Position numbers and translations under genes: made by a program. A DNA stretch of 64,000 nt from assembly GCA_903884425.1 (NCBI GenBank), contig CAISEP010000023.1, positions 371,726-435,725 on the forward strand, written 5' to 3'. Positions 30,986 through 61,638 of the stretch are shown piece after piece. Below the pieces are notes generated by a model. The model was not told where the DNA came from, did no database searches, and saw nothing but the letters and a program-made list of their open reading frames with translations. The DNA comes from an uncultured Caulobacterales bacterium. GTDB lineage: Bacteria > Pseudomonadota > Alphaproteobacteria > Caulobacterales > Caulobacteraceae. Within the stretch, counting starts at the first letter, position 1. Every line of letters starts with the position of its first letter.

Positions 30986-32371
30986 CTACAGGAACATCCG
31001 GCGCTCCGCCCGCAGTGCCGCTGCCAGGGCATCGACATCCCCCGGTCGGGAATAGAGACCCGGGGTCACCCGGATCACCGGCCCCCTGGCCGGGCCGGTG
31101 CGCCAGATGGTGTGGATGCGGTGACGGTCCAGGAGGACCTTCTGCAGGGCCCGGGCCTGGGCGTCCGTCGCCATGCCCTTCAGGCGGAAGCTGGTGATGG
31201 CGCAGTACCGGGCCGGGTCGTCCGGCACGCAGATCTCCACCTCGGGCGTGTCGCGCAGGGCCTGCACCCAGCGGTCGCGCAGGCCCCGCAGATGCTGCTC
31301 CTTGGCCCGGGCACCGACGGCGAAGTGAAAGTCCACCGCCACCGGGATGGTCGTCACCGCGGCGAAGTCCACCGTGCCGGCGGGCGTCCGCGCGGTGATG
31401 TCGTGGGGGTCGGGGTCGGGTTGGTCGGGGGCCGGGTCGATGTCCTGCAGGCGCTCCCGACGGATATACATCGCCCCCGTGCCCAGGGGGGCCGCGGTCC
31501 ATTTGTGCACGGACCATCCGACGAAATCAGCGCCCAGGTCCCCGATCCGGAAATCGAGGCAGGCCACCCCGTGGGCGGCGTCGACCACCGTGTCCACCCC
31601 CCGCGCCCGCGCCATGGCGACGATGTCGCGCACGGGGGTTACGAGGCCGGTCTTGTTCGAGACCTGGGTGACCAGCAGCAGCCGCGCGTGGGGCGTCCGC
31701 GTCAGCACCGCGTCGTAGGCGGCGAGGATGTTGGCGGTGGTGGCGGGCTCCGGCATGGCGAAGCGGACCAGCTCCACCCCCCGCCGGGTCACGAGGCCCT
31801 CGAGGCTGGCGACCATGTCGTCATAGTCGAGGTCGCAGCAGATGACGGCGTCCCCCGCCTTCAGCCGCCGGTACTGGGTCAGCAGGGCGTTCAGGGCTTC
31901 CGCGCCGGAGCGGGTGATGGCGATCTCGTCGGTCCCGGCCCCGACCTGCCGTGCGATCGCCTCCCGTGCCGCGCGTCCGCCCGCCGACAGGCAGGCGCCG
32001 CCGGTCAGCACGTTCCGCGCCCAGATGGAATTGGTGCGGTTGATGAACAGGGTCTGCCGCACATAGTGCTCGGCCACCGGTCGCGGCATGATCCCCCAGT
32101 AGCCGTTCTCGAGATTGTGCACCCCCGGCTCGACATCGAACTGGTCGGGCAGGGCACTGACCGGGATGGACCCGGGGGCGAGGCTGGGTGCCAGCGGCGG
32201 GGCACCGACCGCGGGGGGCTGGGTGGCCGGGGTCTGGGCGGTGGGAGTCTGGGCGGCGGGAGTCTGGGCGGCGGCACCGGCGGTGAGGGCACCGGCCAGG
32301 AGCGGGGGCGCGCTCGCCGCCGCCAGCAGCACTTGCCGGCGGTGCGGGGTCGGGCCGGGCGGGTTTTCCAT
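30986..32371 (-). CDS. Class V aminotransferase (isopenicillin-N epimerase-like) with Tat-like signal
   Basis: HRRQVLLAAASAPPLLAGALTAGAAAQ; VVDAAHGVACLDFRIGDLGADFVGWSVHKWTAAPLGTGAMY contains the PLP-lysine motif. Confidence 0.9.
   Translation of the reverse strand: MENPPGPTPHRRQVLLAAASAPPLLAGALTAGAAAQTPAAQTPTAQTPATQPPAVGAPPLAPSLAPGSIPVSALPDQFDVEPGVHNLENGYWGIMPRPVAEHYVRQTLFINRTNSIWARNVLTGGACLSAGGRAAREAIARQVGAGTDEIAITRSGAEALNALLTQYRRLKAGDAVICCDLDYDDMVASLEGLVTRRGVELVRFAMPEPATTANILAAYDAVLTRTPHARLLLVTQVSNKTGLVTPVRDIVAMARARGVDTVVDAAHGVACLDFRIGDLGADFVGWSVHKWTAAPLGTGAMYIRRERLQDIDPAPDQPDPDPHDITARTPAGTVDFAAVTTIPVAVDFHFAVGARAKEQHLRGLRDRWVQALRDTPEVEICVPDDPARYCAITSFRLKGMATDAQARALQKVLLDRHRIHTIWRTGPARGPVIRVTPGLYSRPGDVDALAAALRAERRMFL
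32216..32275. repeat. Degenerate 15-bp tandem repeat inside aminotransferase gene (AQTPx linker)
   Basis: GGTCTGGGCGGTGGG / AGTCTGGGCGGCGGG / AGTCTGGGCGGCGGC plus one diverged upstream unit; encodes AAQTPAAQTPTAQTPATQPPA. Confidence 0.85.
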
Positions 32372-32552
32372 GCTGTCTCCGGGTCGGGGCCGCGCGACCG
32401 GGCGCGCCTCGCCGGAGGCTAGGGCCGTCCCTGGCTCCGGTAAACCACCGCCGCCGCTCCCTCGCCGCGACCGCCGCCTTGTGCCTGTCCTGGAGGCAGA
32501 AGGCCGACAAGGTCCGAAATCCCGTACACGCCCTGCCCGAACCCTGCGGGTC

Positions 32553-32684
32553 CTATCGCCCCATGAACAGGAGTCCACGCAGGACATAGGCGATCAGCAT
32601 CGTCACCCCGGCTCCGGCGAGGTACAGACCGACAAACCAGGTCAGACGCTTGCGCCAGTCGGGCGGGGGCTCAGTGGTAGCCAT
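32553..32684 (-). CDS. DUF2474-like small membrane protein (bd-oxidase associated)
   Basis: Hand translation MATTEPPPDWRKRLTWFVGLYLAGAGVTMLIAYVLRGLLFMGR; overlaps cydB 3' end by 14 nt. Confidence 0.8.
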   Translation of the reverse strand: MATTEPPPDWRKRLTWFVGLYLAGAGVTMLIAYVLRGLLFMGR

Positions 32685-33696
32685 GCTCGGCCTTCGCCTT
32701 GCCGCGGAAGATCCAGTAGACGAAGCCGGTGTAGCCGAGGATCACGGGCAGCATAATCACGACGCCCACCAGCATCAGGGCCAGCGCGTTGTCCTTGGCC
32801 GCGCAGTCCCACAGGGTCAGCTGGTAGGGTGCCACATAGGGCGCGATGGAGATGGCCAGCCCCAGATAGCCCGCGAGAAATGCCACTGCTGCCGAGGCAT
32901 AGGGGGCGTAGGTCGTCTGGTCCCGTCCGGCGGTGAGGTAGAGCCACGCCAGGGCCAGACCGCCCAGCAGCGGCGCGGGCGACAGGGGCGCGAGCTTCGA
33001 CCAGTCGATGTGGCTCATGGAAACGCCCCACCGCGCAGTCACCGCCGGATTGACGGACAGGGTCGCGACGCTGACCAGGGCCATGCACACGGCGACGGCG
33101 ACGGTCAGCCGCCGGGCCCATCGGCGGGCCTTCCGCTGCAGCTCGCCCTCCGCCTTGGCGATCAGCCAGCAGGCACCCAGCAGCGCATAGCCCAGGGTCA
33201 GGGCGACGGCGGTCAGGCAGCTGAACGGGGTCAGCCAGTCCAGCGGCCCGCCGGCAAAGGCCTGGTCGCGGACCTTGATCCCCTGGACGAAGGCGCCCAG
33301 CACGAAGCCCTGGGCCAGCACGGCTGTGATCGACCCGGCAGAGAAGGCAAAGGTCCAGAAGCGCCGACCGCTGCGCCGTCCATGGGCCCGGAACTCGAAC
33401 GCCACGCCCCGGAAGATCAGCGCCCCCAGCATCAGCATGATCGGCAGGTAGAAGGCCGGCATGACCACCGCATAGGCCAGCGGGAAGGCTGCGAACAGGC
33501 CGCCGCCGCCCAGCACCAGCCAGGTCTCGTTGCCGTCCCAGACCGGGGCGATGGAGGCGGTCATCACGTCCCGCTCCTCGGGCGTCGCAAGGGCGAACAA
33601 GGCACCCACGCCCAGGTCGAACCCGTCGAGCAGCACATACAGCAGGACCGCGACGGCGAGGATCGCCGCCCAGACGAGGGGAAGGTCGAGGCTCAT
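32671..33696 (-). CDS. cydB: Cytochrome bd-type ubiquinol oxidase subunit II
   Basis: LPLVWAAILAVAVLLYVLLDGFDLGVGALFALATPEERDVMTASIAPVWDGNETWLVLGGGGLFAAFPLAYAVVMPAFYLP. Confidence 0.97.
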   Translation of the reverse strand: MSLDLPLVWAAILAVAVLLYVLLDGFDLGVGALFALATPEERDVMTASIAPVWDGNETWLVLGGGGLFAAFPLAYAVVMPAFYLPIMLMLGALIFRGVAFEFRAHGRRSGRRFWTFAFSAGSITAVLAQGFVLGAFVQGIKVRDQAFAGGPLDWLTPFSCLTAVALTLGYALLGACWLIAKAEGELQRKARRWARRLTVAVAVCMALVSVATLSVNPAVTARWGVSMSHIDWSKLAPLSPAPLLGGLALAWLYLTAGRDQTTYAPYASAAVAFLAGYLGLAISIAPYVAPYQLTLWDCAAKDNALALMLVGVVIMLPVILGYTGFVYWIFRGKAKAEHGYH

Positions 33697-35075
33697 GCGC
33701 CTTGCTCCGTGGAGGTCACCAGCACCCGGCGCACAGGCATGGGGTGTCCGTCAGGCTCTGGCTCGGAGGGCTGCGGACCCAGCACGAGCAGGCGGCCGAT
33801 ATAGAGCACGCCGGCGCTGAACACGATCGCGTAGACGACCATGAAACCGGCCAGGGACGCCTGCACCGCGACGGCCGCCACCGGCGAGACCGCGTCGGCG
33901 GTGCGGAGCAGTCCGAACACCACGAAGGGCTGGCGGCCCACTTCCGTGGCCATCCAGCCGCAGATCACCGCGGCAAAGCCCGACGGCCCGGACGCAAGGG
34001 CCGCCCACTGGAACAGCTTCGACCGATCCAGCCGTCCGGTCGCCCAGAGCGCCGCGCCGCCCAGACCGACGGCGATCATCAAGAGGCCGAGGCCGACCAT
34101 GAAGCGGAAGGCCCAGAACGGGATCAGGCTGGGGGGGCGGTCCGCCTTCGGCCAGGCCTTGAGGCCCTTCAGCTCCGCGCTTGCGTCGCCCGCCACCACC
34201 CAGCTGCCGAAGCCCTTCGGCGTCTGCAGCAGCACGTGGGTGGTCTCGGCCTTGTCGTCGGGCCAGCCGATCAGGATGGTGGGTTGACGCCCGGTGTCCC
34301 ACCAGCCCTCCATCGCCGCGACCTTTGTCGGCTGGTATTCGTGGGCGACCTTGCCGCTCTCGTGGCCGATCAGTAGCTGCAGCGGGGCAAGGATCGCCAC
34401 CAGGCCGATGGCCATGCGCTGCATGGTCCGGCTCTCCGCCGTGGCGCGGCCGCGCAGGGCCAGCAGCCCGCTGGCGCCCAGCACGGTCATTCCCGTGGTC
34501 AGATAGGCTGCGGTCACCATGTGGGCGAAGCGGGACGGGAAGGAGGGGTTGAAGATCACCTTCAGCCAGTCCACGGCCACATAGCGCCCGTGCTCGACGG
34601 CGTAGCCCGCCGGGGTCTGCATCCAGGAATTGGCGGACAGGATCCAGAAGGCCGAGAACAGGGTGCCGCCGGCCACGAAGCAGGTGGCGGTGTAGTGCAG
34701 CCCCGGCCCGACCCGCTTCCAGCCGAACAGCATGATGCCCAGGAACGACGCCTCGAGGAAGAAGGCGGTCAGCACCTCGTAGCCGAGGAGCGGCCCCAGC
34801 ACGCTGCCGGTCTTCACGGCGAACACGCTCCAGTTGGTGCCGAACTGGTAGCTCATCACCACGCCGGACACGACGCCCATGCCGAAGGCGAGCGCGAACA
34901 CCTTTATCCAGAACAGGTAGAGGTTGCGGAACACCTCCCGCTTCGTCAGCAGCCACAGCCCCTCCAGCACCGCCAGATAGCTGCCCAGACCGATGGTGAA
35001 GGCCGGGAAGATGATGTGGAACGCCACGGTGAAGGCGAACTGGATGCGGGAGACGATGAAGGGATCGAGGTGCAT
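33693..35075 (-). CDS. cydA: Cytochrome bd-type ubiquinol oxidase subunit I
   Basis: SRIQFAFTVAFHIIFPAFTIGLGSYLAVLEGLWL; FGMGVVSGVVMSYQFGTNWSVFAVKTGSVLGPLLGYEVLTAFFLEASFLGIMLFGW. Confidence 0.97.
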   Translation of the reverse strand: MHLDPFIVSRIQFAFTVAFHIIFPAFTIGLGSYLAVLEGLWLLTKREVFRNLYLFWIKVFALAFGMGVVSGVVMSYQFGTNWSVFAVKTGSVLGPLLGYEVLTAFFLEASFLGIMLFGWKRVGPGLHYTATCFVAGGTLFSAFWILSANSWMQTPAGYAVEHGRYVAVDWLKVIFNPSFPSRFAHMVTAAYLTTGMTVLGASGLLALRGRATAESRTMQRMAIGLVAILAPLQLLIGHESGKVAHEYQPTKVAAMEGWWDTGRQPTILIGWPDDKAETTHVLLQTPKGFGSWVVAGDASAELKGLKAWPKADRPPSLIPFWAFRFMVGLGLLMIAVGLGGAALWATGRLDRSKLFQWAALASGPSGFAAVICGWMATEVGRQPFVVFGLLRTADAVSPVAAVAVQASLAGFMVVYAIVFSAGVLYIGRLLVLGPQPSEPEPDGHPMPVRRVLVTSTEQGA

Positions 35076-35169
35076 GCCGCTCAGTCTCCAGGTCCGCGGA
35101 AGCGGCGGATGAGGCCCGAAGGCCCCTGCTGCTTCCCGGCAAAATTGCTAACACGATGCAGGGTTTTCG

Positions 35170-36444
35170 TCATGGGTTCGACGACCCCAGCAGGGCGGCG
35201 AGCTGGTAGGACGCGACGGTCCGGGCTGCCGCCGCCTGGGACAGCTTGGCACGGGCCTCCAGGACGTCGCGCTCGGCATTCAGCAGGTCGAGGATGGGCT
35301 TTTGCCCGACCCGCACCTCGTGGCGCAGGCTGTCCCGCGCCGATTCGGCAGCCGTGACCTGGTCCCGAGCCGCGCGCTCGGCTGCGGCGGCGGTGCGGGC
35401 GGCGTTCCAGGTGCGGATGACCGCTGTCCTGAGGTCGGAGCGGGCGCGGGCGAGAACGGCCTCGGCCTTGTGCAGCTCGGCGCGAGCCTCGCTGATCCGG
35501 GCGCTGGTGCCGCCGGACGAGAACAGGCTCCAGCGTCCCTGCACGCCGATCATCGAGCCATCCGCCCGGTAGCCGGGGAAGAACTGATCCCGCGCGCTCG
35601 ACACGCTGGCGGTCAGGGCGACATTCGGCAGCCGCTCGGCCTGCGCCACCCGGACGCCGGCCCGGGCCGCCTGGACCCTCGCATCGGCGGCGGCGAGGTC
35701 GGGGTTGCCCTGCTCGGCCGCGGCAATCAGTCCGTCGAGATCTGCGGACAGGGGGGCGGGTGGCGGAAGCGGATCGAGCGGGTCCGGCGGCACACCGACC
35801 CAGGCGGCATAGTCGGCGGCGGCATCAGCGGACGCGCCCTGCGCCGCCGCCAGCCGGGCGGCGCCGTCCGCCTGCCTCGCCTGCGCCTGCGAGAGCTCGG
35901 AGAGGGGTATCTCACCCGCCTTGAAGCGCAGCGCGGCCTGGCGGGCGATCTCGGCCGTGGCTGAGGCATAGGTCGCCGACTGCGCCAGATTGTCCCGCGC
36001 AGACAGGACCGCGCCGTAGGCCTGCGCCACGCGGGCGGCGAGCTTGAGCCCTTGCCCCCGAGACAGGGTCGCGGCGGCCCTGCGACCCTGCCGGGCCTGT
36101 TCCATGCCGCCGAGGACCGCGCCTCCGGAGAACAGGGTCTGGCGGACTTCCAGGGACACGGCCCGCGGATCCACCGTGGACTTGCCGAAGCCGAAGAAGC
36201 CGCCGAGATCGCTCGTTCCATGGCCGGTCTGACCGACCACGGCGACCTGCGGCAGACCGGCGGCCCGGGCCTCAGCCAAGCGGGCGTCGGCCAGGTCGAG
36301 GTCGGCGGCGGCCTCGGCCATGTCCGGGTGCGTCTTGAGGGCGCGGGCAATGGCCTCGTCCAGCGACGTGGCCAGCGATGGCCGCGGGGCCGCCAGGGCC
36401 AGCGCCAGTGCAAGCCCTGAAGCCAGACGGGCGCTGCGGTTCAT
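35170..36444 (-). CDS. TolC-family outer-membrane efflux protein
   Basis: Signal peptide, two OEP repeats (SLDEAIARALKTHPDMAEA...; LDGLIAAAEQGNPDLAAADARVQAARAGVRVAQAERLPNVALTAS). Confidence 0.93.
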   Translation of the reverse strand: MNRSARLASGLALALALAAPRPSLATSLDEAIARALKTHPDMAEAAADLDLADARLAEARAAGLPQVAVVGQTGHGTSDLGGFFGFGKSTVDPRAVSLEVRQTLFSGGAVLGGMEQARQGRRAAATLSRGQGLKLAARVAQAYGAVLSARDNLAQSATYASATAEIARQAALRFKAGEIPLSELSQAQARQADGAARLAAAQGASADAAADYAAWVGVPPDPLDPLPPPAPLSADLDGLIAAAEQGNPDLAAADARVQAARAGVRVAQAERLPNVALTASVSSARDQFFPGYRADGSMIGVQGRWSLFSSGGTSARISEARAELHKAEAVLARARSDLRTAVIRTWNAARTAAAAERAARDQVTAAESARDSLRHEVRVGQKPILDLLNAERDVLEARAKLSQAAAARTVASYQLAALLGSSNP

Positions 36445-36644
36445 CGGAAGGCGACCCCGGGCTTCAGCCCCAGCGCCTTGAACACCATCGCCGCCGGGCA
36501 GAAGCCGGTGAAGGCGGCCTGGATCATGTTCAGGCCGGCAAAGGCAGACAGTGCGATCCACCAGGGATGGACGGTGAGAGAGAGGACGATCCCCGCCAGG
36601 ACGACCAGTCCGGCAAAGACGAAGACTGCGCGATCTACAGACAC
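36441..36644 (-). CDS. DUF2892 (YgaP transmembrane-domain) protein
   Basis: GTG start, VSVDRAVFVFAGLVVLAGIVLSLTVHPWWIALSAFAGLNMIQAAFTGFCPAAMVFKALGLKPG; 4-nt overlap with TolC gene. Confidence 0.88.
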   Translation of the reverse strand: MSVDRAVFVFAGLVVLAGIVLSLTVHPWWIALSAFAGLNMIQAAFTGFCPAAMVFKALGLKPGVAFR

Positions 36645-36661
36645 CTCAATGATCTCCCGCT

Positions 36662-37957
36662 TCAGCTTGCTGATTTGAGCTTGTGAACACCGATCAGTTC
36701 GAGGGCCAACTTCTCGTAGAATGGCTCGGAGATACCCTTCCGGACCTTTCCGAGAAAGTATTTCTCGAAGCCGATCTTGGCGAGGTGGACCCACGCGCCG
36801 TCGGCGGACCAGTTCACATTGCGCGGCGGAATCTGCGGCTGGGCGATGAAGCAGACGCCGCCGTCGCCGAAGTCGGCGAGGCAGATCGCGTTCCAGCTGG
36901 CCTCATGGGTGGGTGCCTGGCCGGCGATGATCTGCTTGAGGTTCAGGGTGATGGCCGTGACCATGCTCTCGATCATGAAGCCGGTCTTGGGCACGCCGAC
37001 GGGCACGGCGGTCTTGCCGGTCGGCGGTATGGCGACGCAGACGCCGAGGGCGAACACGTTCGGGAACTTCGGATTGCGCTGGTGCTTGTCGACGAGGATG
37101 AAGCCCCGGGGATTGGTCAGCCCGTCGATCCCGCTGACGGCCGGAACGCCGCGGAAAGCCGGGAGCATCATCGAGAACTTGAAGGGGACCTGATGCCCCG
37201 CTTTCAGGGCGCCGTCGTCGTTGAGTTCCTCGACATGCATCAGGCCGGGCTCGACCTTGGCCACGCGGGCGTTGGTGATCCACTTGACGTGCCGCTGGCG
37301 CATCTCGGACTCCAGCAGGCCCTTGGTGTCGCCGACACCGTCGAGGCCGAGATGGCCGATATAGGGCTCGGAGGTGACGAAGGTCATCGGCACCCGGTCG
37401 CGGACGTGGCGGCGGCGCAGTTCCGTGTCGAGGATCATGGCGAACTCGTAGGCCGGGCCGAAGCATGAGGCACCCTGGACGGCACCGACCACGATCGGGC
37501 CGGGGTCCTTGACGAGGTCTTCGAAGGCCCGGGCTGCGTCTTCGGCATGGTCCACATGGCAGACCGACTGGGTGAAGCCCCCGTGGGGTCCCAGCCCCTC
37601 GATCTCGTCGAAGGCCAGCTCCGGGCCGGTGGCGATGACCAGATAGTCGTAAGGCAGCACGGCACCATCGTTGAGGACCAGCTCGTTCCGCTCCGGGTGC
37701 AGGCTGGCCGCGCCGCCGGAATTGAAGCCGATCCTGCGCTTGCGGAACACCGGCCCCAGCCGGACCTCTATGGCGTCCCGGTCGCGCCAGTTGACGGCGA
37801 CCCACGGGTTCGACGGCACGAAGTGGAACACGTCGCCCTTGTTGACGACTGTCAGTTCGACCGTATCGCCCAGGGCTTCGCGGAGTTCGAAGGCGGCGAT
37901 GCTGCCGCCCAGACCGGCGCCGAGAATGACGATCCGCGGCTTGGCTGCACGCGTCAT
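36662..37957 (-). CDS. sqr: Sulfide:quinone oxidoreductase-family flavoprotein
   Basis: RIVILGAGLGGSIAAFELREALG; SVCHVDHA; GASCFGPAYEFAMILDTELR; CFIAQPQIPPRNVNW; C-terminal membrane-attachment region. Confidence 0.88.
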   Translation of the reverse strand: MTRAAKPRIVILGAGLGGSIAAFELREALGDTVELTVVNKGDVFHFVPSNPWVAVNWRDRDAIEVRLGPVFRKRRIGFNSGGAASLHPERNELVLNDGAVLPYDYLVIATGPELAFDEIEGLGPHGGFTQSVCHVDHAEDAARAFEDLVKDPGPIVVGAVQGASCFGPAYEFAMILDTELRRRHVRDRVPMTFVTSEPYIGHLGLDGVGDTKGLLESEMRQRHVKWITNARVAKVEPGLMHVEELNDDGALKAGHQVPFKFSMMLPAFRGVPAVSGIDGLTNPRGFILVDKHQRNPKFPNVFALGVCVAIPPTGKTAVPVGVPKTGFMIESMVTAITLNLKQIIAGQAPTHEASWNAICLADFGDGGVCFIAQPQIPPRNVNWSADGAWVHLAKIGFEKYFLGKVRKGISEPFYEKLALELIGVHKLKSAS

Positions 37958-38047
37958 GCTTGAATCCTCCCTGTTTCGCCCCGTCTCACCCCTGTCGCTC
38001 TGGGGCCGCAGGAACCGACATCCCCACGGCGGGCTTGACTTGAATAT

Positions 38048-38076
38048 ACACATACGCGCATATACGCAATATGTGT
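38048..38076. promoter_or_regulatory. Nested inverted repeats in the SQR/rhodanese divergent promoter region
   Basis: ACACATA (38048-38054) with TATGTGT (38070-38076); CATAT-ACGCA-ATATG (38059-38073); ATACGC direct repeat at 38052 and 38062. Confidence 0.65.
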
Positions 38077-38098
38077 TTTTCGGAGTTCGGAGCCCATC

Positions 38099-38437
38099 AT
38101 GTTCGGATCGAAACCCCACCCGGAAATGACCCCGGCCGAGGTCCACGCGGCGCTCGGGACGGGTCGGGTCGTGCTGGTCGACGTGCGCGAGGCGGCGGAG
38201 CACGACGCGGAACGGATCGACGGCGCTCTGCTGCGCCCTCTCTCCAGCTTCCAGCCAAAGGCCCTTCCGGTGACCGAAGGCGCTTCGGTGATCCTGCACT
38301 GCGGGTCCGCCAAGCGGTCGGCCACCGCCCTCGACATGTGCCGTAAGGCCGGCGTGCCGGTGACCACGCACATGGCGGGCGGGTTGATGGGCTGGAAGGC
38401 CGCCGGCCTGCCCACCGTCGTGGGCGGATCGCACTGA
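38099..38437 (+). CDS. Single-domain rhodanese-like sulfurtransferase
   Basis: VVLVDVREAAEHDAERIDGALLRPLSSF...VILHCGSAKRSATALDMCRKAG...MAGGLMGWKAAGLP. Confidence 0.93.
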   Translation: MFGSKPHPEMTPAEVHAALGTGRVVLVDVREAAEHDAERIDGALLRPLSSFQPKALPVTEGASVILHCGSAKRSATALDMCRKAGVPVTTHMAGGLMGWKAAGLPTVVGGSH

Positions 38438-38460
38438 GCGTGCTTGGGGACGTGACAACC

Positions 38461-39516
38461 ATGGCCAATCGACCTGTGACCCTGAGAACCGCGGCGCTCG
38501 CCTCGCTGGCGGCGGTGGCGCTGCTGGCGGGATGTTCCGAGCACAAGCTGGAGAAGGCCGGGGCACCCATCGGCACTGCAACGGATGCGTGGGTTGTGAC
38601 GGCTGGACAGACAGCGGACCTGCGACCGGTCGTGGCGATCTACACCCCGCGTGACGCGGCCGATGCCCGGGCGCGGATCGGCGGAACCCTGGTGTCGCTG
38701 AGCGTGCGGGAGGGAGACAGGGTCCGTCGCGGCCAGGTGATCGGCCAGGTCCGGGACGAGCGTCTCGGCCTTCAGTCCAGCGCCGCGGACGCCATGGTCT
38801 CGGCGGCGGCGGCGGAGGCGGGTCGCGCCGATGCGGATCTGGCCCGGACCCGGGACCTTTTCGAGCACGGGGTCTATGCGAAGGCCCGCCTCGAACAGGC
38901 GGAGGCCAGCGCCCGTGCGGCAAACGCGCAGCTGAAGGCGGCGAAGGCCCAGCATGCCGCCAGCGCCGACCTGGTGGGGCAGGGGGTCCTCCTCGCGCCC
39001 GCTTCGGGCGTCGTGCTGCATGCGCCGATACCGGCTGGGTCGGTGGTCAGCCCCGGACAGGTCATCGCGACCCTCTCCGCCGGACCGCCGGTGATCCGGC
39101 TGCAGCTTCCCGAGGCCCAGGCCGGCGCCGTCAAGCCGGGCCAGTCCCTGCAGATTCGCGGCGACGACGGCGTTCTGAAGCCCTCCGACCGTGTCCTCCA
39201 GGTCTACCCCTCCGTGTCCGGGGGCGAGGTGACCATCGATCTGGCCGCCGACCCGCAGGGTGAGGCCCTGGTCGGACAACGGATCGACGTGCTGGTCCCG
39301 GTGGGGGTCCGCTCCGCCATCGTCGTTCCGAGGCGCATGGTCACGACCCGCTATGGCGTCGACTATGTCCGCCTCCTGCGGACCGACGGCGCGGCGGAGG
39401 ACGTCATCGTCCAGACCGCGCCCGCCGCAGCCGCGGATCAGGTCGAGATCCTGTCCGGGCTGCGGGCCGGTGATCGGATCGTCGGCGCGCCAGCCGAAAA
39501 GGCGACGCCGCGATGA
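38461..39516 (+). CDS. RND efflux periplasmic adaptor (lipoprotein)
   Basis: Lipobox LLAGC; IGGTLVSLSVREGDRVRRGQVIGQV lipoyl-like domain. Confidence 0.93.
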   Translation: MANRPVTLRTAALASLAAVALLAGCSEHKLEKAGAPIGTATDAWVVTAGQTADLRPVVAIYTPRDAADARARIGGTLVSLSVREGDRVRRGQVIGQVRDERLGLQSSAADAMVSAAAAEAGRADADLARTRDLFEHGVYAKARLEQAEASARAANAQLKAAKAQHAASADLVGQGVLLAPASGVVLHAPIPAGSVVSPGQVIATLSAGPPVIRLQLPEAQAGAVKPGQSLQIRGDDGVLKPSDRVLQVYPSVSGGEVTIDLAADPQGEALVGQRIDVLVPVGVRSAIVVPRRMVTTRYGVDYVRLLRTDGAAEDVIVQTAPAAAADQVEILSGLRAGDRIVGAPAEKATPR

Positions 39517-42500
39517 AACTCGGCCTATCCGGGACCCTGGCCCGTTTCGGCCTCGGCTCGCCCCTCACGCCCCTGTTCCTGATCGCCGCCCTTGCGGTGG
39601 GCCTGCTGGCCGTGGCCACCATCCCGAGGGAGGAGGAGCCGCAGATCAGCGTTCCCATGGTCGACATCATGGTGCAGACGCCGGGACTCCGCGCCACCGA
39701 CGCCGTCGAGCTGGCCGCCAAGCCGCTGGAGGCCATCGTCAAGGGCGTGCCGGACGTGGATCACGTCTACACCTTCGTGGACGACGACCACTTCATGGTC
39801 ACCGCCCGCTTCAAGGTCGGGGTCGACCCGGACGCCGCCGTCGTCCGCATCCACGAGAAGCTGCGCGCCAATGCGGACCGGATCCCGCCAGGCGTGTCCG
39901 AGCCTCAGGTCGTCGCCCGCGGCATCAATGACGTGCCCGCGGTGGTCCTGACCCTGTCACCGGCACCGGGCTCCGCCGGACGCTGGTCGGACCAGGCGCT
40001 GCATGACCTTGCCGTGAAGCTGCGTACCGAACTGACCAAGGTCGACGATGTGGGCCTGACCTTCATCGTCGGTGGTCGCCCGGAGGAGGTGCGGATCGAG
40101 CCGGACGCCGGTCGCATGGCCAGCCGCGGCGTCTCCCTCGCCGCGCTCACCGACGCGGTTCGTCAGGCCGGGCGCAGCTTCCCCGGCGGCGTGCTGCGCA
40201 ATGACGGTCACGCGGTGCAGATGGCCGCCGGCGGCAGTCTCGGCAGCGCCGCCGAGGTCGGGCTGATCGCCGTCCCCTCCATCTCCGGCGGGACCATCTA
40301 TGTGCGCGACGTCGCCCGGGTGATCCAGGCCCCCCGCGAAGACCAGACCCACGTGATCCGCACCGCCCTCACAAGGGACGGCTGGACCACGACGCCGGCG
40401 GTCAGCCTGGCCATCGCCAAGCGGCGGGGCGCCAACGCCGTGGTGGTCGGCGAGGCCCTGATGAAGCGCGTCGAGGCGCTCAAGGGCTCGCTGATCCCCG
40501 CCGGCGTCGACGTGGCGGTGACCCGCAACTACGGGGAGTCCGCCAACGAGAAGGCCAATGAACTGCTGTTCCATCTGGCCCTCGCAACCGTCTCGATCGT
40601 CATCCTGATCGGCTTCGCTATCGGCTGGCGGGAAGCCGCGGTCACCGCCGTGGTCATCCCGACCACCATCCTGCTGACTCTCTTCGCGTCCAAGCTGATG
40701 GGCTACACGGTGAATCGGGTCAGCCTGTTCGCCCTGATCTTCTCCATCGGCATCCTCGTCGACGACGCCATCGTGATGATCGAGAACATCGCCCGGCACT
40801 GGGCGATGAACGATGGCCGCAGCCGGATCCAGGGCGCCGTCGAGGCGGTGGCCGAGGTCGGCAATCCCACCGTGGTCGCCACCCTGACCGTGGTGGCGGC
40901 GCTGCTGCCCATGCTGTTCGTGTCCGGCCTGATGGGCCCCTACATGGCGCCGATACCGGTGAATGCGTCGGCGGCCATGCTGTTCTCGTTCTTCGTCGCC
41001 GTGGTCCTGGCGCCGTGGCTGATGGTCCGCTTCGCCCGCAAGGCGATCGCCGGGCATGGACATGACAAGGCCCATGACGCCACGGGCGGACGTTTGGGCC
41101 AGCTCTATCGCCGTGTCGCCGGGCGGGTAATCGCCACGCGATCCTCGGCCTGGAAGTTCCTTGCCTGCGTCGGCGTCGCGACGCTGCTTGCCTGCGCGAT
41201 GTTCGCGACTAAGACGGTCACGGTCAAACTGCTGCCGTTCGACAACAAGTCCGAGCTGCAGGTCGTGCTGGACCTGCCGGCGGGCGCCTCCCTCGAGGAT
41301 ACCGCCCGGATCTTGGCCGACGCCACGGCCATTGCCCGCACCGTGCAGGAAGTGACCGCCGTCGATGCCTATTCCGGCACGGCCTCGCCATTCAACTTCA
41401 ACGGCCTCGTGCGGCACTACTACCTACGCACATCCCCGTCCCAGGGCGACCTGTCGGTCACCCTGTCGCCGAAGGGAGAGCGGTCCCGGGCCAGCCACGC
41501 CATCGCCCTCGACCTGCGGGAGCGGCTGAAGGCCCTGCCCCTGCCGGCCGGGTCGGCGCTGAAGGTGGTGGAGGCGCCTCCCGGCCCGCCGGTGATGGCG
41601 ACCCTGCTGGCCGAGGTGTACGGCCCGGACGCCGCCACCCGCCGCGCCGTCGCCCTGAAGCTGAAGTCGATCTTCCGCTCCGTGCCCTTCATCGTCGATG
41701 TGGACGACAGTTTCGGACAACCTCCGCCCCGCCTGCAGATCACGCCCGACCGGGAGCGGCTGGAGCACCTCGGCGTGCCGGAACGCGACGTGCTTGACTC
41801 CATGGGCGCAGCTTTCAACGGAGCCACAGTGGGCTACGTGCAGCGGGGCGACGGCCGTGATCCGCTGGCGGTCAGTATCCGGCTTGCCCAGTCCGACCGG
41901 ACCTGGAGCGCGGGTCTCGCCGCCCTGCCGGTGGCGGCCGCGTCAGGCCGCCTGGTCTCCCTCGGCGAGGTCGCCAGCCCTGCTCAGACCCAGGGCTCGC
42001 CGCACATCTTCCGCCGCGACGGACGGGACGTGGACATGGTGCTGGGCGAACTCGCCGGAGCCTATGAGGCCCCGATCTACGGCATGGGTGCAGTCGACGA
42101 CGCCATTGCCAGGACCGACTGGAAGGACCTGCCGCGGCCCTCCATCCGCCTGAACGGCCAGCCGGAGGACGAGACCCGCCCGACCGTGCTGTGGGACGGG
42201 GAATGGGAGATCACCTGGGTCACCTTCCGCGACATGGGGGCGGCCTTCGGCGTAGCGATCCTCGGCATCTACATCCTGGTGGTCGCCCAGTTCGGCAGCT
42301 TCAAGCTGCCTCTGGTGATCCTCACCCCGATCCCCCTGACCCTGGTCGGCATCGTCATCGGCCACATGCTGTTCAGGGCGCCGTTCACGGCCACCTCGAT
42401 GATCGGCTTCATCGCGCTGGCCGGGATCATCGTGCGCAACTCGATCCTACTGGTGGACTTCATCCGCCATTCGCAAGGAGACGGTCGCCCCCTGCGCGAG

Positions 42501-42710
42501 GTGCTGTTGGAGGCGGGCGCCATCCGCGTCAAGCCGATCCTGCTGACCGCGCTAGCCGCCATGATCGGCGCGGCGGTGATCCTTACCGACCCGATTTTCC
42601 AGGGCCTTGCAATCTCCCTGCTGTTCGGGCTGGCCTCGTCGACCCTGCTGACCGTGCTGGTGATCCCGGCGATCTACATTGTCCTGAGAGATGAAAGGCA
42701 ACGCTCATGA
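39513..42710 (+). CDS. RND efflux inner-membrane permease (AcrB-type)
   Basis: 1065 aa; IPREEEPQISVPMVDIMVQTPG, IFSIGILVDDAIVMIENI, LTALAAMIGAAVILTDPIFQGLAISLLFGLASSTLLTVLVIPAIY. Confidence 0.97.
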   Translation: MKLGLSGTLARFGLGSPLTPLFLIAALAVGLLAVATIPREEEPQISVPMVDIMVQTPGLRATDAVELAAKPLEAIVKGVPDVDHVYTFVDDDHFMVTARFKVGVDPDAAVVRIHEKLRANADRIPPGVSEPQVVARGINDVPAVVLTLSPAPGSAGRWSDQALHDLAVKLRTELTKVDDVGLTFIVGGRPEEVRIEPDAGRMASRGVSLAALTDAVRQAGRSFPGGVLRNDGHAVQMAAGGSLGSAAEVGLIAVPSISGGTIYVRDVARVIQAPREDQTHVIRTALTRDGWTTTPAVSLAIAKRRGANAVVVGEALMKRVEALKGSLIPAGVDVAVTRNYGESANEKANELLFHLALATVSIVILIGFAIGWREAAVTAVVIPTTILLTLFASKLMGYTVNRVSLFALIFSIGILVDDAIVMIENIARHWAMNDGRSRIQGAVEAVAEVGNPTVVATLTVVAALLPMLFVSGLMGPYMAPIPVNASAAMLFSFFVAVVLAPWLMVRFARKAIAGHGHDKAHDATGGRLGQLYRRVAGRVIATRSSAWKFLACVGVATLLACAMFATKTVTVKLLPFDNKSELQVVLDLPAGASLEDTARILADATAIARTVQEVTAVDAYSGTASPFNFNGLVRHYYLRTSPSQGDLSVTLSPKGERSRASHAIALDLRERLKALPLPAGSALKVVEAPPGPPVMATLLAEVYGPDAATRRAVALKLKSIFRSVPFIVDVDDSFGQPPPRLQITPDRERLEHLGVPERDVLDSMGAAFNGATVGYVQRGDGRDPLAVSIRLAQSDRTWSAGLAALPVAAASGRLVSLGEVASPAQTQGSPHIFRRDGRDVDMVLGELAGAYEAPIYGMGAVDDAIARTDWKDLPRPSIRLNGQPEDETRPTVLWDGEWEITWVTFRDMGAAFGVAILGIYILVVAQFGSFKLPLVILTPIPLTLVGIVIGHMLFRAPFTATSMIGFIALAGIIVRNSILLVDFIRHSQGDGRPLREVLLEAGAIRVKPILLTALAAMIGAAVILTDPIFQGLAISLLFGLASSTLLTVLVIPAIYIVLRDERQRS

Positions 42711-43081
42711 CCTCCGCCCCTACCCACGACTGGCCCGGCGTCGCCGCGTCCCTCAGCCAGGCCATGAAGCCGCTCCGCGGCGGCGCACCGGACGCCATGG
42801 CCGCCTTCAGCGCCCTGGCCAGGGCGGCGCTGGAGCCAAACGCCCTGCCGACGAAGACCAAGGAGCTGATCGCCCTTGGCATTTCCGTCGCGACGCGATG
42901 TGATGGCTGCATCGCGTTCCACGCCGAGGCCGCCGCCCGGCACGGCGCGTCGCGCGAGGAGATCATGGAGACCATGGGCATGGCGATCTATATGGGTGCA
43001 GGACCCAGCGTTATGTACGCCGCCCAGGCCCTCGAGGCCTTCGATCAGTTTACCGCCAAGGCCCCGACGAAGAGCGCATGA
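42707..43081 (+). CDS. Carboxymuconolactone decarboxylase/AhpD-like protein
   Basis: ATRCDGCIAFHAEAAARHGASREEIMETMGMAIYMGAGPSVMYA with CxxCxxxH motif. Confidence 0.93.
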   Translation: MTSAPTHDWPGVAASLSQAMKPLRGGAPDAMAAFSALARAALEPNALPTKTKELIALGISVATRCDGCIAFHAEAAARHGASREEIMETMGMAIYMGAGPSVMYAAQALEAFDQFTAKAPTKSA

Positions 43082-43422
43082 CCCTGACCGCACCCCAGAT
43101 CGCCCCTCCGAGCCCGGCGGCGCTCGCAGAACTCCAGGCCAGCGCCGGACAGGCGACGCGGATGATGAAGCTCCTCGCCAGCGAGCAGCGGCTGATGCTG
43201 CTCTGCCGGCTGCTGGAGGGCGAGTGCTCGGTCCTTGAGCTGGCGCGCGCGTCTGGCCTGTCGCAGACCGCGGCGTCTCAGCACCTCGCCAAGCTTCGGG
43301 CCGAACGGCTGGTGGAGACCCGCCGCTCTGCCCAGACCATCTACTACCGGCTGGAGGACCCGGCCGTGATCCAGCTGCTGCGGACGCTCTGCGACATCTA
43401 TCATCCGGAGGCCGGGAAATGA
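43078..43422 (+). CDS. ArsR-family repressor, SqrR/BigR/YgaV-like
   Basis: MKLLASEQRLMLLCRLLEGECSVLELARASGLSQTAASQHLAKLRAERLVETRRSAQTIYYRLEDPAVIQLLRTLCDIYH. Confidence 0.92.
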   Translation: MTLTAPQIAPPSPAALAELQASAGQATRMMKLLASEQRLMLLCRLLEGECSVLELARASGLSQTAASQHLAKLRAERLVETRRSAQTIYYRLEDPAVIQLLRTLCDIYHPEAGK

Positions 43423-44159
43423 GGCGACGCGTCGCGGCGGCCCTGTGCGGGATCATGGCGCTCGGCCTGTCGGTTCAGGCGGCCCTGGCCGAGCCGACCC
43501 GGCTGATGGTGCGGGCGCTGGCCCAGGACGCGAAGTTCATCGGAACCCATACGGGCGGAGTCGACGTCACCCTCACGGACGTGCGCACCGGCCGGGTGCT
43601 CGCCAGCGGCCGGATTCTGGGCGGGACCGGTGACACGGCCAGGATCATGCAGACGCCCCGCACGCGTGGGCAGACGCTCGCCGACGCCGCCACGGCGGGC
43701 TACGAAGCGGTCCTCGACCTGGCCGAGCCAACCCTGGTGCGCGTCGACGCCCGCGGCCCCCTCGGCGTTCCGGCCTCGACCATCTCCGTATCGTCGACGC
43801 TGTGGATGCTGCCGGGCCGTGACGTGGTCGGCGACGGCCTGGTCCTGACCTTTCCCGGCTTCGCCATCGAGCCGGCCGTCACCCGCGGTGCCGATGGCGC
43901 CCGGACGATCTCGGCCAAGGTCAGCATGATGTGCGGCTGCCCGATCACGCCGGGCGGGCTCTGGGACGCGGCAGACCTCACGGTCAGCGCCGACCTGCTG
44001 GCGGGTGGTCAGGTCGTGGCAACCGTGCCGCTCCACTATGCGGGCCAGCCGAGCCAGTTCGCCTCCGAGCCGGTTGCAGCGCCGTCGACGGTGACGGCCA
44101 TCCGGGTGGTGGCGGCGTCCCGGACAACATCAAACGCCGGATCAGCAAGGGTGCCGTGA
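43419..44159 (+). CDS. Secreted hypothetical protein with MMCGCPITPGG motif
   Basis: Signal peptide AALCGIMALGLSVQAALA; translationally coupled (4-nt overlap) to ArsR gene. Confidence 0.75.
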   Translation: MRRRVAAALCGIMALGLSVQAALAEPTRLMVRALAQDAKFIGTHTGGVDVTLTDVRTGRVLASGRILGGTGDTARIMQTPRTRGQTLADAATAGYEAVLDLAEPTLVRVDARGPLGVPASTISVSSTLWMLPGRDVVGDGLVLTFPGFAIEPAVTRGADGARTISAKVSMMCGCPITPGGLWDAADLTVSADLLAGGQVVATVPLHYAGQPSQFASEPVAAPSTVTAIRVVAASRTTSNAGSARVP

Positions 44160-44206: not shown

Positions 44207-45349
44207 TCAGTCCAGCGTGGTGCGGTAGCGGAGCATGGCCAGGCTCGTGATGGCGACCAGAAACGCCGCCAGGGCCGCGAGGCTTGCGGTGAGGTCGGCG
44301 AAGGTCTCCCCCTTCAGCACGGTGCCGCGGACGATGCGCAGGAAGTGCGTTACCGGCAGCAGCTGGCCGACATCCCGGGCCCACACCGGCATGCCCTGGA
44401 AGGGAAAGGCGAAGCCTGACAGCAGCACGGACGGCATGATGTAGAAGAAGCTCATCTGCATGGCCTGCAGCTGGGTCTGAGCCAGGGTCGAGAACAGGAA
44501 GCCCAGCGCCAGGCTGCCGATGATGAACAGCACGACGCCGACGCCCAGTGCGCTCCAGGACGCCGCGGTGTCGGGCATCGGGACCCCGAACATCAGATCG
44601 GCGACGCCAAGGATCACCAGGGTCTGGACCAACCCCACTCCCACATAGGGGCTCAGCTTGCCCGCCATCACCTCGATCGGCCGGACGGGCGTGGCGAGGA
44701 GGCTCTCCATGGTTCCGCGCTCCCGCTCCCGGGTGACGCTCAGCGCGGTCATCAGCACCAGGGTCAGGGACAGGATGACCCCGAGCAGTCCCGGCACCAC
44801 ATTGAAGGCCGTGATGTTCTCCGGATTGAAGCGCCGGTGGACGATGACCTCGAAGGGATCGGCGGCCGGGAGCCAGGCGGCTCCCCCCACGAGGTCCCGG
44901 GCCAGGGCGGTCCGCGGCAGGGCGGCAAGCAGGGAGGCCGCGCCGCCCACCGCGGTCGGATCGGCGGCATCCGCCTCCACCAGCACCTGGGCGTGGTCAT
45001 GACGGACCACCCGGCGGGTGAAGTCCGCGGGAATGGTCACTGCGAACAGGGCCTCTCCCTGGCGGATCGAGGCCTCCACGTCGGACTGGCTGTGCGCGAC
45101 CCGGATGATCCGGAAATAGGTGGAGTTGTCGAGCGCGGCGAGGACCGATCGGGCCATGGCCGACTGGTCCTGCACATAGACGATGGTCGGAAGGTGCCGT
45201 GGATCGTTGTTGATGGCGTAGCCGAACAGAAGCAGCTGGACCACCGGCATCAGCAGCATCATCGCATAGGTCAGCCGGTCACGGCGAAGCTGGGTGAACT
45301 CCTTGACGAGCACCGCCAGGATGCGCCGGAAGGCCAGGGGCTGGGTCAT
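44207..45349 (-). CDS. ABC-2 type transporter permease
   Basis: FRRILAVLVKEFTQLRRDRLTYAMMLLMPVVQLLLFGYAINNDPRHLPT; RERERGTMESLLATPVRPIEVMAGKLSPY. Confidence 0.95.
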   Translation of the reverse strand: MTQPLAFRRILAVLVKEFTQLRRDRLTYAMMLLMPVVQLLLFGYAINNDPRHLPTIVYVQDQSAMARSVLAALDNSTYFRIIRVAHSQSDVEASIRQGEALFAVTIPADFTRRVVRHDHAQVLVEADAADPTAVGGAASLLAALPRTALARDLVGGAAWLPAADPFEVIVHRRFNPENITAFNVVPGLLGVILSLTLVLMTALSVTRERERGTMESLLATPVRPIEVMAGKLSPYVGVGLVQTLVILGVADLMFGVPMPDTAASWSALGVGVVLFIIGSLALGFLFSTLAQTQLQAMQMSFFYIMPSVLLSGFAFPFQGMPVWARDVGQLLPVTHFLRIVRGTVLKGETFADLTASLAALAAFLVAITSLAMLRYRTTLD

Positions 45350-46260
45350 CCCGCTTCACCCTCCCGCCCCATCAGCCGGATGAACACGTCCTCCAGGGTC
45401 GGTGCGATCTCGCTCCAGACGACCCCGGTCCTGCGGAAGGGCGCGATGGCGGTCTCGAGGGCGGAGCGGTCGGTTCCGCTCACGTGCAGGGCCTGGCCGA
45501 AGGGCGAGGCCATCAGCACCCCCGGCGCGCGGGACAGGTCGGCGGCCATTCGATAGGCGCCCTCTCCCTCGGCCCGAAAGGTGATCAGGCGGGAGTCGCG
45601 CACCAGCGCCTCCGCCGAGCCGCGGGCGATCAGCCGACCCTGGAAGATGTAGGCGATGTCGTGACATCGCTCGGCCTCGTCCATGTAGTGCGTGGAGACC
45701 AGGACGGTCAGGCCCTCCGCGGCAAGGGCGTGGATCTGGTCCCAGAAGTCCCGCCGCGCCTTGGGGTCGACGCCGGCCGTGGGCTCGTCCAGCAGGAGCA
45801 GCTTCGGTCCGTGCAGGGTACAGCCGGCCAGGGCCAGCCGCTGCTTCCAGCCGCCGGACAACTCCCCCGCCAGTTGCCTGCGACGAGGGCCGAGACCCAA
45901 CTGCTCGATGGCCCCGCTCACCCGCCGCCGACCGTGCTCGAGACCATAGACCCTGGCGATGAACAGCAGGTTTTCCTCGATCGACAGGTCCTCGTAGAGG
46001 GAGAACCTCTGGGTCATGTAGCCGGTCCGGCGCTTGATCTGATCGGTCTCCCGCAGGATGTCGAAGCCCAGGCAGGTGCCTTCGCCGCTGTCGGGACGCA
46101 ACAGGCCGCACAGCATGCGCAGGGTCGTGGTCTTTCCGGATCCATTGGGGCCGAGAAAGCCGCAGATGCGCCCGGCCTCCACCGAGATGGCCACGTCCTG
46201 CACGACCGCCTTGGCGCCGAAGGTCTTGTTCAGGTGACGGACGTCGATGGCGAGGCTCAA
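45346..46260 (-). CDS. ABC transporter ATP-binding protein
   Basis: Walker A GPNGSGKTTTLRM, signature LSGGWKQRLALA, Walker B LLLLDEPTAGVDP. Confidence 0.97.
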   Translation of the reverse strand: MSLAIDVRHLNKTFGAKAVVQDVAISVEAGRICGFLGPNGSGKTTTLRMLCGLLRPDSGEGTCLGFDILRETDQIKRRTGYMTQRFSLYEDLSIEENLLFIARVYGLEHGRRRVSGAIEQLGLGPRRRQLAGELSGGWKQRLALAGCTLHGPKLLLLDEPTAGVDPKARRDFWDQIHALAAEGLTVLVSTHYMDEAERCHDIAYIFQGRLIARGSAEALVRDSRLITFRAEGEGAYRMAADLSRAPGVLMASPFGQALHVSGTDRSALETAIAPFRRTGVVWSEIAPTLEDVFIRLMGREGEAG

Positions 46261-47216
46261 GGCGCGTCCTCGACCGGTGTCACGTCCACCGGGAGGCCCG
46301 GGGTCAGGCGGGCCGCGTCCTGCGGCCGCGCTTCCACGAGGTAGACGAGGCTGTCCCGGGTGCGGCGGCTGTAGATCACCGGTGGGGTGTATTCCGGACG
46401 GGGACTGACATAGTTGATCACTGCGCTGCGGGTCAGGCCGCAGCCGTCGCAGGCAAACCGCACCGTCCGGCCGGGGCGGTAGCGGGCGACCACGGTCTCC
46501 GGCACGAAGAAGCGCAGGCGCACCCGGTCATCGGGCAGCAGGCTCACGATGGCCTGGTTGGCCGGAACCCACTCCCCGGCCTGGAAGAAGACCTCCTCGA
46601 CCCGCGCGGCGGTCGGCGCGGTGGGGGACAGATAGGCGAGCCGGACCGACACATCCGCCAGCCCGCCCCGGGCGCGCTCGGCCCCCTCGGTTGCCGCCGC
46701 TGCCTGTGCCCGCGCCGCGGCGACCTGTGCCGTTGCAGCAGCGGCCTGTGCGCGCGCGGCCGCGGCGTTGGCCATGGCCCGGTCGGCATCCTGCCTTGAA
46801 ACCGCGCCGCTGCCGTTGCGCACCAGGTTCGCGAAGCGGCCGGCATCGACCTCTGCATTGTCCGCCAGCACCCGGGCCGCCGATGCCGCGGCCTCCAGCT
46901 GGGTCAGTGTTCCCCGCGCGGCCTCGACCTGCGCTTCGGCCTGCGCGACTTCGGAGACGGACTGTGCGTGCTGGGCGGCGATCGGGCGTGGATCGACCCG
47001 GAACAACGGGTCTCCGGCCTTCACCCGCTGGCCCCGCACGACCGCCAGGCTTGCCAGCGGTCCGCTGACGGGGGCGGCGAGATAGAGGGCCTCTCCCTCC
47101 ACATAGCCGGACAGGACGGGCGCGTCCCTCGGACGGGCGACCCAGGCATAGGCGACCAGTCCGGCAACCACCGTCGCGACCGGCGCCACCACCCTCAATC
47201 TCCATCGACGGACCAT
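46257..47216 (-). CDS. HlyD-family periplasmic adaptor (YhiI-like)
   Basis: LSGYVEGEALYLAAPVSGPLASLAVVRGQRVKAGDPLFRVDPRP; long Ala-rich coiled coil. Confidence 0.92.
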   Translation of the reverse strand: MVRRWRLRVVAPVATVVAGLVAYAWVARPRDAPVLSGYVEGEALYLAAPVSGPLASLAVVRGQRVKAGDPLFRVDPRPIAAQHAQSVSEVAQAEAQVEAARGTLTQLEAAASAARVLADNAEVDAGRFANLVRNGSGAVSRQDADRAMANAAAARAQAAAATAQVAAARAQAAAATEGAERARGGLADVSVRLAYLSPTAPTAARVEEVFFQAGEWVPANQAIVSLLPDDRVRLRFFVPETVVARYRPGRTVRFACDGCGLTRSAVINYVSPRPEYTPPVIYSRRTRDSLVYLVEARPQDAARLTPGLPVDVTPVEDAP

Positions 47217-47378
47217 TTCGCGTTCCCCGCCGGCCGGGCACCCGGGCACCACAGAACGATGGCACCGACGCAGACCGCTTGCAACGGAGAGGACGGCGTC
47301 CGGACCAGGCGCGCAATGGGATGGATCAACCGGCCGCGACGGCGTCCTTGCGGGAACGGCTCATCTCCGAAAATTTTG

Positions 47379-50984: not shown

Positions 50985-51215
50985 TCAATTGACCCTGTGG
51001 AGCAGCGACTGCAGGAACGCTCGGCCATTCAAACGGCGGCGTCCAGAGAAATGTCCCCGGTTCGCGCCGCCCCCTTCGCGCCAGGGCCTCGGGAATCGTG
51101 TGGAACGCGAGTCCGCGGTCTCGGGAAGGATGACCATCCGACGCTCGAGGATCGGTCATGCCGGTCGGGCAAAACACTCCGAGAGAACCGTGGCACCCTG
51201 TGGTCGGATCGGATT

Positions 51216-51713
51216 TCACCGTCTCAGCAGGGCTGGCGTCGAGAAGTCTGTCCACGCCAGTTCTTCGAAGGGTCGGGTGGCCCCAGAGCCTTGATTTGAC
51301 GCGATCTCATAGAAATTGTTGTCGCGAAACAAGAACGACCGGCCGACGAACACCGGGGTCAACTCGAAGGTCGCGTTGAGGGCGATGCGGAGTTCAGGAT
51401 CCTCGACGTACTGTGCGCCGGAGTTGTTGCCATCGGCGAGCTCTGTCACATCGAAATGCCGACCGGTCGTGACGTCGATATTCCAGGCGTGCTGCAACAC
51501 GGCCGTCTCATCGGAATATCGCAGGACGATCCAGCCGAGGGCGACAGTGTATCTTGGACCGTCGGGTCCGATGCTGTCGTTGCAGACCTTCAGTGCATTT
51601 GCGAAGCAGGTATTTCTCGGGGCAGACCCCACATAGTCCACCTGCCGCAGAAACCGCACGCTGGCACCGCGTTCTCGCCGCCGCCGAACGAGCGCAATGG
51701 TTGCGCGCATCAT
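51216..51713 (-). CDS. Hypothetical protein
   Basis: MMRATIALVRRRRERGASVRFLRQVDYVGSAPRNTCFANALKVCNDS...; plausible globular composition; start uncertain. Confidence 0.5.
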   Translation of the reverse strand: MMRATIALVRRRRERGASVRFLRQVDYVGSAPRNTCFANALKVCNDSIGPDGPRYTVALGWIVLRYSDETAVLQHAWNIDVTTGRHFDVTELADGNNSGAQYVEDPELRIALNATFELTPVFVGRSFLFRDNNFYEIASNQGSGATRPFEELAWTDFSTPALLRR

Positions 51714-52161
51714 GACATGAGATCCCCGCGGCTCCCAATCGAGGTGGAAAATGACTTGAACCAGGATCCAGCCAATGGTGGCTGATTGTGGCGGTGGCGC
51801 AGCCTGAACGTTTCGCTTCGGACACGACGTTTCACGGCTGTAGACTCGCATCCCGGGGATCGGTGTCATCGAGGCGCGCGGCATGAAATGTCGGAGGGCA
51901 CCGGCATTGAAACTCCGCCAGCCCCCGTCAAGGCCTCTACCGTCGATGAAGGACCGCTCGCCACTGGCAAGCAGTCAATGGCCAACCGGACGGAACAAGA
52001 TTTCGTCGTTCGCAAGAGCCGCCATCATCTTCATTCAACTGTACCGTGTGTGCGTCGGGGCTTGTGGATTTTCGTCATACGATTGACTTGCGCTTCGCCG
52101 CGCCCACCAATCACCTATTCGGTGTTCAGGGCCTTCAATCCTTCTGTGTGGGTGGGGAGAC

Positions 52162-55017: not shown

Positions 55018-55217
55018 TCGTGGATTCCGGCAGGCGCGGGCCCGTACTCGCGGGCGGAACGACTTGACCCGGCCGCAGGGGGCGGCCGTGCTGTCCCCGG
55101 AGCCCAGGAGATGCGATTGATTTTATATTAATTGCGTTTGACATTGGCAGGAGAAAACGGGGCGAGGCGCAAGTCTGTCTCAGTCAAGTCACTGGATCTT
55201 TGTGTGTCGGGGGCGCC

Positions 55218-58200: not shown

Positions 58201-58247
58201 ATTACTACGGCCGGTCCTTCTTCATGGATGTGTCGCGCAAATTCTGA
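55218..58247 (+). CDS. TonB-dependent receptor
   Basis: [58 protein letters not shown]; C-terminal aromatic strand FFMDVSRKF. Confidence 0.95.
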   Translation: [1009 protein letters not shown]

Positions 58248-58290
58248 AACAGGAGCGGGTCCGCGGAATTGCCGACCCTGCGTTCAAGCC

Positions 58291-61607: not shown

Positions 61608-61638
61608 CGACCACTCCGGCTTGGATCTCCCTCCGTCA

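Follow-up and report, generated by a model that had tools for sequence, protein, structure and literature searches.

Why would a sulfide:quinone oxidoreductase (SQR) be encoded back to back with a complete efflux pump? The question is raised by a 64,000-nucleotide stretch of DNA (hereafter the window) from an uncultured Caulobacterales bacterium (assembly GCA_903884425.1, contig CAISEP010000023.1, positions 371,726 to 435,725). Here two compact arms of genes diverge from a single AT-rich promoter region at about 38.05 kb, their junctions being mostly overlaps of a few bases (ATGA type), as in operons. One arm encodes SQR, a DUF2892 protein, a TolC-family channel and cytochrome bd; the other encodes a rhodanese, the adaptor and permease of a resistance-nodulation-division (RND) pump, an AhpD-like protein, an ArsR repressor and a secreted protein. 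A preliminary description of the sequence had proposed that all of this forms one sulfide-responsive regulon, with the pump as its least explained part. We consider it likely that the locus is a locally regulated sulfide and persulfide defence module in which the pump would remove a sulfide-derived product.

We scanned GTDB genomes with an alignment of the permease and recovered at least 80 loci with flanks of up to 10 kb, a sample of the closest permeases that is biased toward near relatives. Partner genes were counted within 5 kb of the permease in the 67 loci with sufficient flank. The adaptor was found in all 67, ArsR in 57, DUF2892 in 56 and a type I SQR in 44, followed by rhodanese (28/67), the carboxymuconolactone decarboxylase (CMD)/AhpD-like protein (14/67), TolC (10/67) and CydA (2/67). 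The same divergent layout was kept in many of these loci, and TolC adjoined the SQR–DUF2892 pair in 10. Thioredoxin 2 occurred within 6 kb in 21 loci, metallo-β-lactamases resembling persulfide dioxygenase (PDO) in 8 and TauE in 6. Among the matches listed, every carrier with a taxonomic name was alphaproteobacterial, and copies of the module were plasmid-borne in Asticcacaulis, Rhizorhabdus, Azospirillum and Paracoccus. The preliminary description had staked its proposal on conservation of the neighbourhood in relatives, and conserved it is, across the alphaproteobacteria. Its spread is patchy: one of five relatives within the window's own genus was positive (G004), at contig ends. When the class was sampled evenly, type I SQR turned up in 4 of 114 other genomes, each of which belonged to the nine with the permease (hypergeometric probability about 2e-5, computed by hand). 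SQR and permease were adjacent in three of these genomes and on separate contigs in the fourth (G151). Chance is excluded as the source of the association of SQR, pump and ArsR.

The SQR itself is of type I. It matched the solved Acidithiobacillus ferrooxidans enzyme over its full length (497 bits over residues 9–431), with all three catalytic cysteines aligned; by A. ferrooxidans numbering, we take these to be Cys128, Cys160 and Cys356. In Paracoccus denitrificans (L017) and a metagenome-assembled genome of the Xanthobacteraceae (L081), a type II (mitochondrial-type) SQR lies near the same pump and DUF2892. Because the type of SQR is swapped beside the same pump, these loci suggest that the pump is linked to sulfide oxidation rather than to a single SQR gene lineage.

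By gene content, TolC, adaptor and ACR_tran permease in one locus make up a complete tripartite HAE-type RND pump. D417 and D418 in TM4, presumably the paired aspartates of the proton relay as in AcrB, were invariant across six aligned permeases. The permease is remote from any solved RND structure (best match 251 bits). In a phylum-level search, permeases at 58% identity or more were confined to the same class, the alphaproteobacteria, and relatives in other proteobacteria reached about 46% identity or less. Type I SQRs yield polysulfide or S8, and RND pumps capture what they export in the periplasm and outer leaflet, which makes sulfane sulfur a reasonable candidate substrate. Export of a sulfur-derived toxin, as first put forward, is plausible and now better motivated. 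Given the recurrence of sulfide genes with this pump across alphaproteobacteria, it is probably some product of sulfide stress that the pump expels.

The repressor resembles known persulfide sensors in fold. The closest solved relatives of the window ArsR are HlyU, YgaV, NolR and SqrR, and its AlphaFold model (pLDDT 93.6) lies 1.1 Å from SqrR and HlyU. Established persulfide sensors pair a cysteine in helix 2 with another in helix 5 (PMC10509353). The conserved helix-2 cysteine is present (C43), but the canonical helix-5 site (109) is a histidine, and a cysteine stands instead at 105, one turn upstream and within helix 5 (residues 95–108). The NCBIfam BigR equivalog scored 74.5 bits, below its cut-off of 155. 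The earlier assignment as an SqrR/BigR-like repressor therefore holds for the fold and the helix-2 cysteine and needs amending for the displaced second cysteine and the BigR score. Of 82 distinct ArsRs in permease loci, 45 pair C43 with the canonical site and 32 pair it with C105; one has the canonical site only, and four have no second site. C43 is kept in all but one, and C105 and C109 never occur together. In a tree built without the cysteine columns, with support that is modest because the protein is short, the displaced type formed essentially one clade, with two changes between types; this clade comprises RND-linked modules of Caulobacterales and Sphingomonadales. A separate cluster in the window's family and one genome of the order (L112, L113, L115, L119 and L120) has PDO, rhodanese, in most cases DUF2892, TauE and an ArsR with canonical cysteines, mostly in divergent arrangement, and no RND pump was seen in the stretches carrying these clusters. 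In these relatives the canonical ArsR accompanies the PDO cluster, so it is the displaced type that is associated with the SQR/RND module. Three sphingomonad ArsRs (L039, L062 and L027) carry an extra cysteine at 108 (LCELC or WEIC), with or without C105.

The AT-rich palindromic region at about 38.05 kb is real, an imperfect dyad ACACATA/TATGTGT. A 35-bp element, TTGAC...AATAT-N9-CGCATATACGCAA, lies in the divergent region at 38035–38069, with TTGACT at 38035 (the −35 box of the plus arm, by eye) and AATATACACATACGCGCATATACGCAA at 38043–38069. Overlapping promoters for both arms can be read by eye, TTGACT...CATATA and, reversed, TTGCGT...TATTCA for the minus arm; a simple consensus promoter scan did not call the element. 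The pattern ATAT-N9-CGNATATNCGCAA was present in 12 of 56 divergent regions; its sole occurrences elsewhere in 1.88 Mb were the homologous promoters in L001 (which is the window's own copy), L002 and L009. A looser form, TTGAC-N12-22-ATxT...GCAA, occurred in 28 of the 56 regions, compared with 0.03 in shuffles, and at 10 places elsewhere in 1.82 Mb; similar elements lie at further places in L017 and L075. Loci with a canonical ArsR share the element as well. One repressor site could control both arms. The exact element is a single copy in the 3.58-Mb window genome, so any regulon inferred from it is local; a genome-wide regulon was rejected, the remaining matches being weak. A literature search found no published BigR/SqrR operator sequence for comparison. 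In Bradyrhizobium (L035–L046), the ArsR start codon lies a few bases past the predicted −10 box, which suggests a leaderless arsR transcript.

Taken as a working model, entering sulfide would be oxidised by SQR at the membrane, with electrons passing to quinones. Persulfides and polysulfide, the sulfane sulfur produced in this step, would be handled by rhodanese and, in related loci, also by thioredoxin 2 and persulfide dioxygenase. In the window genome, no clear persulfide dioxygenase ortholog was found, the best matches being partial, at 40–41%, and to general metallo-β-lactamases. We infer that rising persulfide is the effector: it would modify C43 and C105 of ArsR, which would then leave its putative site at 38035–38069, so that both arms would be induced together. 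The TolC–adaptor–permease pump would clear from membrane and periplasm some sulfide-stress product that is hydrophobic or reacts with thiols, with S8, organic polysulfides or thiol adducts as candidates. In the window genome, the added bd oxidase may sustain quinol oxidation while sulfide blocks haem-copper oxidases. A bolder form of the model, offered tentatively and in our judgment rather unlikely, is that a dedicated RND pump removes SQR-made sulfane sulfur (membrane-dissolved S8 or organic polysulfides) and so provides an efflux route parallel to the dioxygenase route; its repressor would represent a second structural class of persulfide sensor, with the helix-5 cysteine moved one turn.

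All lines of evidence here derive from sequence, and several observations weigh against the defence module as we describe it. Five of the 67 loci lack every one of the sulfide partners, two of these five (L049 and L091) adjoin a gyrA-like gene, and the Shinella pump (L016) is adjoined by a TetR gene. These contexts indicate that the tie between pump and sulfide is not strict and that the pump can serve other uses in some loci. We know of no permease relative with a tested substrate. The second ArsR cysteine is out of its canonical place, and it is missing from a few RND-linked ArsRs (L114). Because element and promoter overlap, the element may be conserved for reasons other than repressor binding. 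CydA, finally, is within 5 kb of the permease in just two loci and is widespread and mostly unlinked elsewhere.

This last point bears on where the module ends. The 460-aa CydA is the sole CydA match in the window genome, and matches to both the CydA and CydB families indicate, by gene content, a cytochrome bd/cyanide-insensitive oxidase. A 94-bp gap separates tolC from cydA, and nearly all module loci are without cydAB, so that an SQR/rhodanese/ArsR/RND module might simply neighbor an unrelated cydAB operon with its own promoter. We take such a pair of adjacent units seriously without favoring it: a similar CydAB (about 50% identity) stands beside the module in L025 and L062, at different positions, and bd oxidase tolerates sulfide and, in Acinetobacter baumannii, is sulfide-induced (PMC7315123). 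More distant bd genes occur in L014, L023, L068 and L085. The neighborhood counts rule out bd oxidase as a core component; CydAB is an occasional accessory, seen in few loci. Of the proposed single regulon, there accordingly survives a sulfide/persulfide module whose neighbourhood is conserved and whose arms share one divergent control region; the bd oxidase is lost as an integral part. The same counts argue against a cyanide resistance island, in which a cyanide-insensitive bd oxidase and rhodanese would act together and SQR would provide the sulfane sulfur needed to form thiocyanate. CydAB and rhodanese do share this locus, but fewer than half of the loci have a rhodanese, and the ArsR resembles persulfide sensors and no known cyanide sensor; we rejected this explanation as the main one and regard it as very improbable.

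Defence against organosulfur or electrophilic toxins of plants or microbes (thiosulfinates, isothiocyanates and diallyl polysulfides) would assign the pump to the toxin itself and leave SQR, rhodanese, thioredoxin and AhpD to clear the resulting persulfide and disulfide stress. The permease is of the multidrug type, several carriers are soil or plant bacteria, and AhpD, which reportedly belongs to the Pseudomonas allicin-resistance island, recurs here along with thioredoxin 2. We nevertheless find a toxin-centered role decidedly unlikely: SQR, the commonest enzyme partner, has no clear part in allicin defence, many carriers are from lakes or sediments or belong to photosynthetic groups, and glutathione reductase, OsmC and Kef are not among the recurrent neighbour families listed. 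The repressor could also respond to metal, peroxide or general thiol oxidation instead of persulfide, as its non-canonical second cysteine and low BigR score would allow. Its nearest solved relatives, the near-universal C43, the coherent distribution of C105 (32 ArsRs in essentially one clade, never with C109) and an element common to loci with canonical ArsR make such a sensor unlikely.

Genes were called from open reading frames (ORFs) and Pfam/NCBIfam profile scans (Table 1), which bore out the gene list initially given for both arms, except for one label. The 43-aa ORF after cydB had been called DUF2474, an identity we dropped because this family gave zero Pfam match even at E = 10; the size and place of the ORF are compatible with a small bd-oxidase subunit.

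Table 1. Features of the divergent locus, in window coordinates
Feature	Position	Strand	Basis
Small ORF, 43 aa, single-helix membrane protein, possible small bd subunit	32553..32684	-	Size and position; overlaps cydB end
CydB, cytochrome bd subunit II	32671..33696	-	PF02322; TIGR00203 162 bits, cut-off 117
CydA, cytochrome bd subunit I, 460 aa	33693..35075	-	PF01654 490 bits
TolC-family outer-membrane channel	35170..36444	-	PF02321; TIGR01844 241 bits, cut-off 225
DUF2892/YgaP-like transmembrane protein (YgaP-like_TM)	36441..36647	-	PF11127 42 bits
SQR, type I	36662..37957	-	497 bits to A. ferrooxidans SQR (3sz0)
Shared divergent promoter/operator element (putative)	38035..38069	.	Recurrent pattern; promoter boxes read by eye
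Single-domain rhodanese	38099..38437	+	PF00581 49 bits
RND periplasmic adaptor, lipobox LLAGC	38440..39516	+	TIGR01730 137 bits
RND permease, alphaproteobacterial clade (58% identity or more)	39513..42710	+	PF00873 499 bits
CMD/AhpD-like protein	42707..43081	+	PF02627; TIGR00778 59 bits
ArsR repressor; helix-2 C43, displaced helix-5 C105, canonical second Cys site occupied by H109	43078..43422	+	PF01022
Secreted protein, MCGCP motif	43419..44159	+	No Pfam family

The secreted MCGCP protein was rejected as a core part: it was found in 5 of 79 other genomes of the family, mostly in other settings. Its relatives on sphingomonad plasmids lie beside sulfur-export genes, YeiH/LysR in L110 and TauE/TSUP/DsbB in L111. 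Downstream of the cyd genes on the same strand, 30986–32440 (minus) encodes a class-V aminotransferase (PF00266) with a cysteine-desulfurase-like fold and a twin-arginine-like signal, apparently exported. On the other side, ABC-2 permease, ATPase and HlyD genes (44207–47252, minus) run convergent to the module, and in Paracoccus (L017) the pump likewise has ABC-2-type and RbbA genes nearby. At 51000–62000, GC content falls from about 0.70 to 0.58–0.66, possibly marking acquired DNA, and the region encodes a 951-aa WD40 protein, a TonB receptor and a regulator with TPR repeats.

What appears to be new is a defined module with its own pump clade, a recurrent control element and a displaced-cysteine group of repressors. 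If our reading is right, bacteria can dispose of the sulfur from sulfide detoxification by pumping it out, and sulfide would switch on a multidrug-type pump, tying sulfide exposure to drug tolerance. The displaced-cysteine repressors would offer a natural experiment on the thiol spacing that still allows persulfide sensing, and surveys requiring both canonical cysteines overlook them. Li et al. 2025 (PMC12423496) list RND pumps near sulfane-sulfur-responsive ArsR genes, in general terms, as a likely target type. The general linkage is the same as in our module; the part consulted gives no module anatomy, operator or pump clade. Their survey demanded both canonical cysteines, a requirement that the displaced type would fail. 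Our literature search found no match to the exact gene set beyond that paper.

Among characterized systems, the A. ferrooxidans type I SQR matches the window enzyme over its full length and in the three catalytic cysteines, and the window enzyme differs by its operon with an RND pump. MexAB-OprM of Pseudomonas aeruginosa belongs to another permease clade, and to our knowledge its operon has no SQR. Both pumps are tied to sulfane sulfur, by prediction for the window and by shown induction for MexAB, where a MarR-family sensor, MexR, releases repression upon sulfane sulfur (PMC9495516). SqrR, BigR, YgaV and HlyU share with the window ArsR the fold, the helix-2 cysteine and a gene context with sqr, rhodanese and DUF2892; they differ in having the helix-5 cysteine at its canonical place. 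Closest in theme are the bigR operon (PDO/Blh, YeeE/YedE, DUF2892 and BigR) and the PDO–rhodanese–DUF2892–TauE cluster, which resemble the window in ArsR, rhodanese, DUF2892 and sulfane sulfur. These systems combine a canonical-cysteine ArsR with persulfide dioxygenase, with an RND pump unseen in the stretches examined, whereas the window locus is without PDO and YeeE/YedE and has SQR and the RND pump. In Paracoccus (L017), the two kinds stand side by side.

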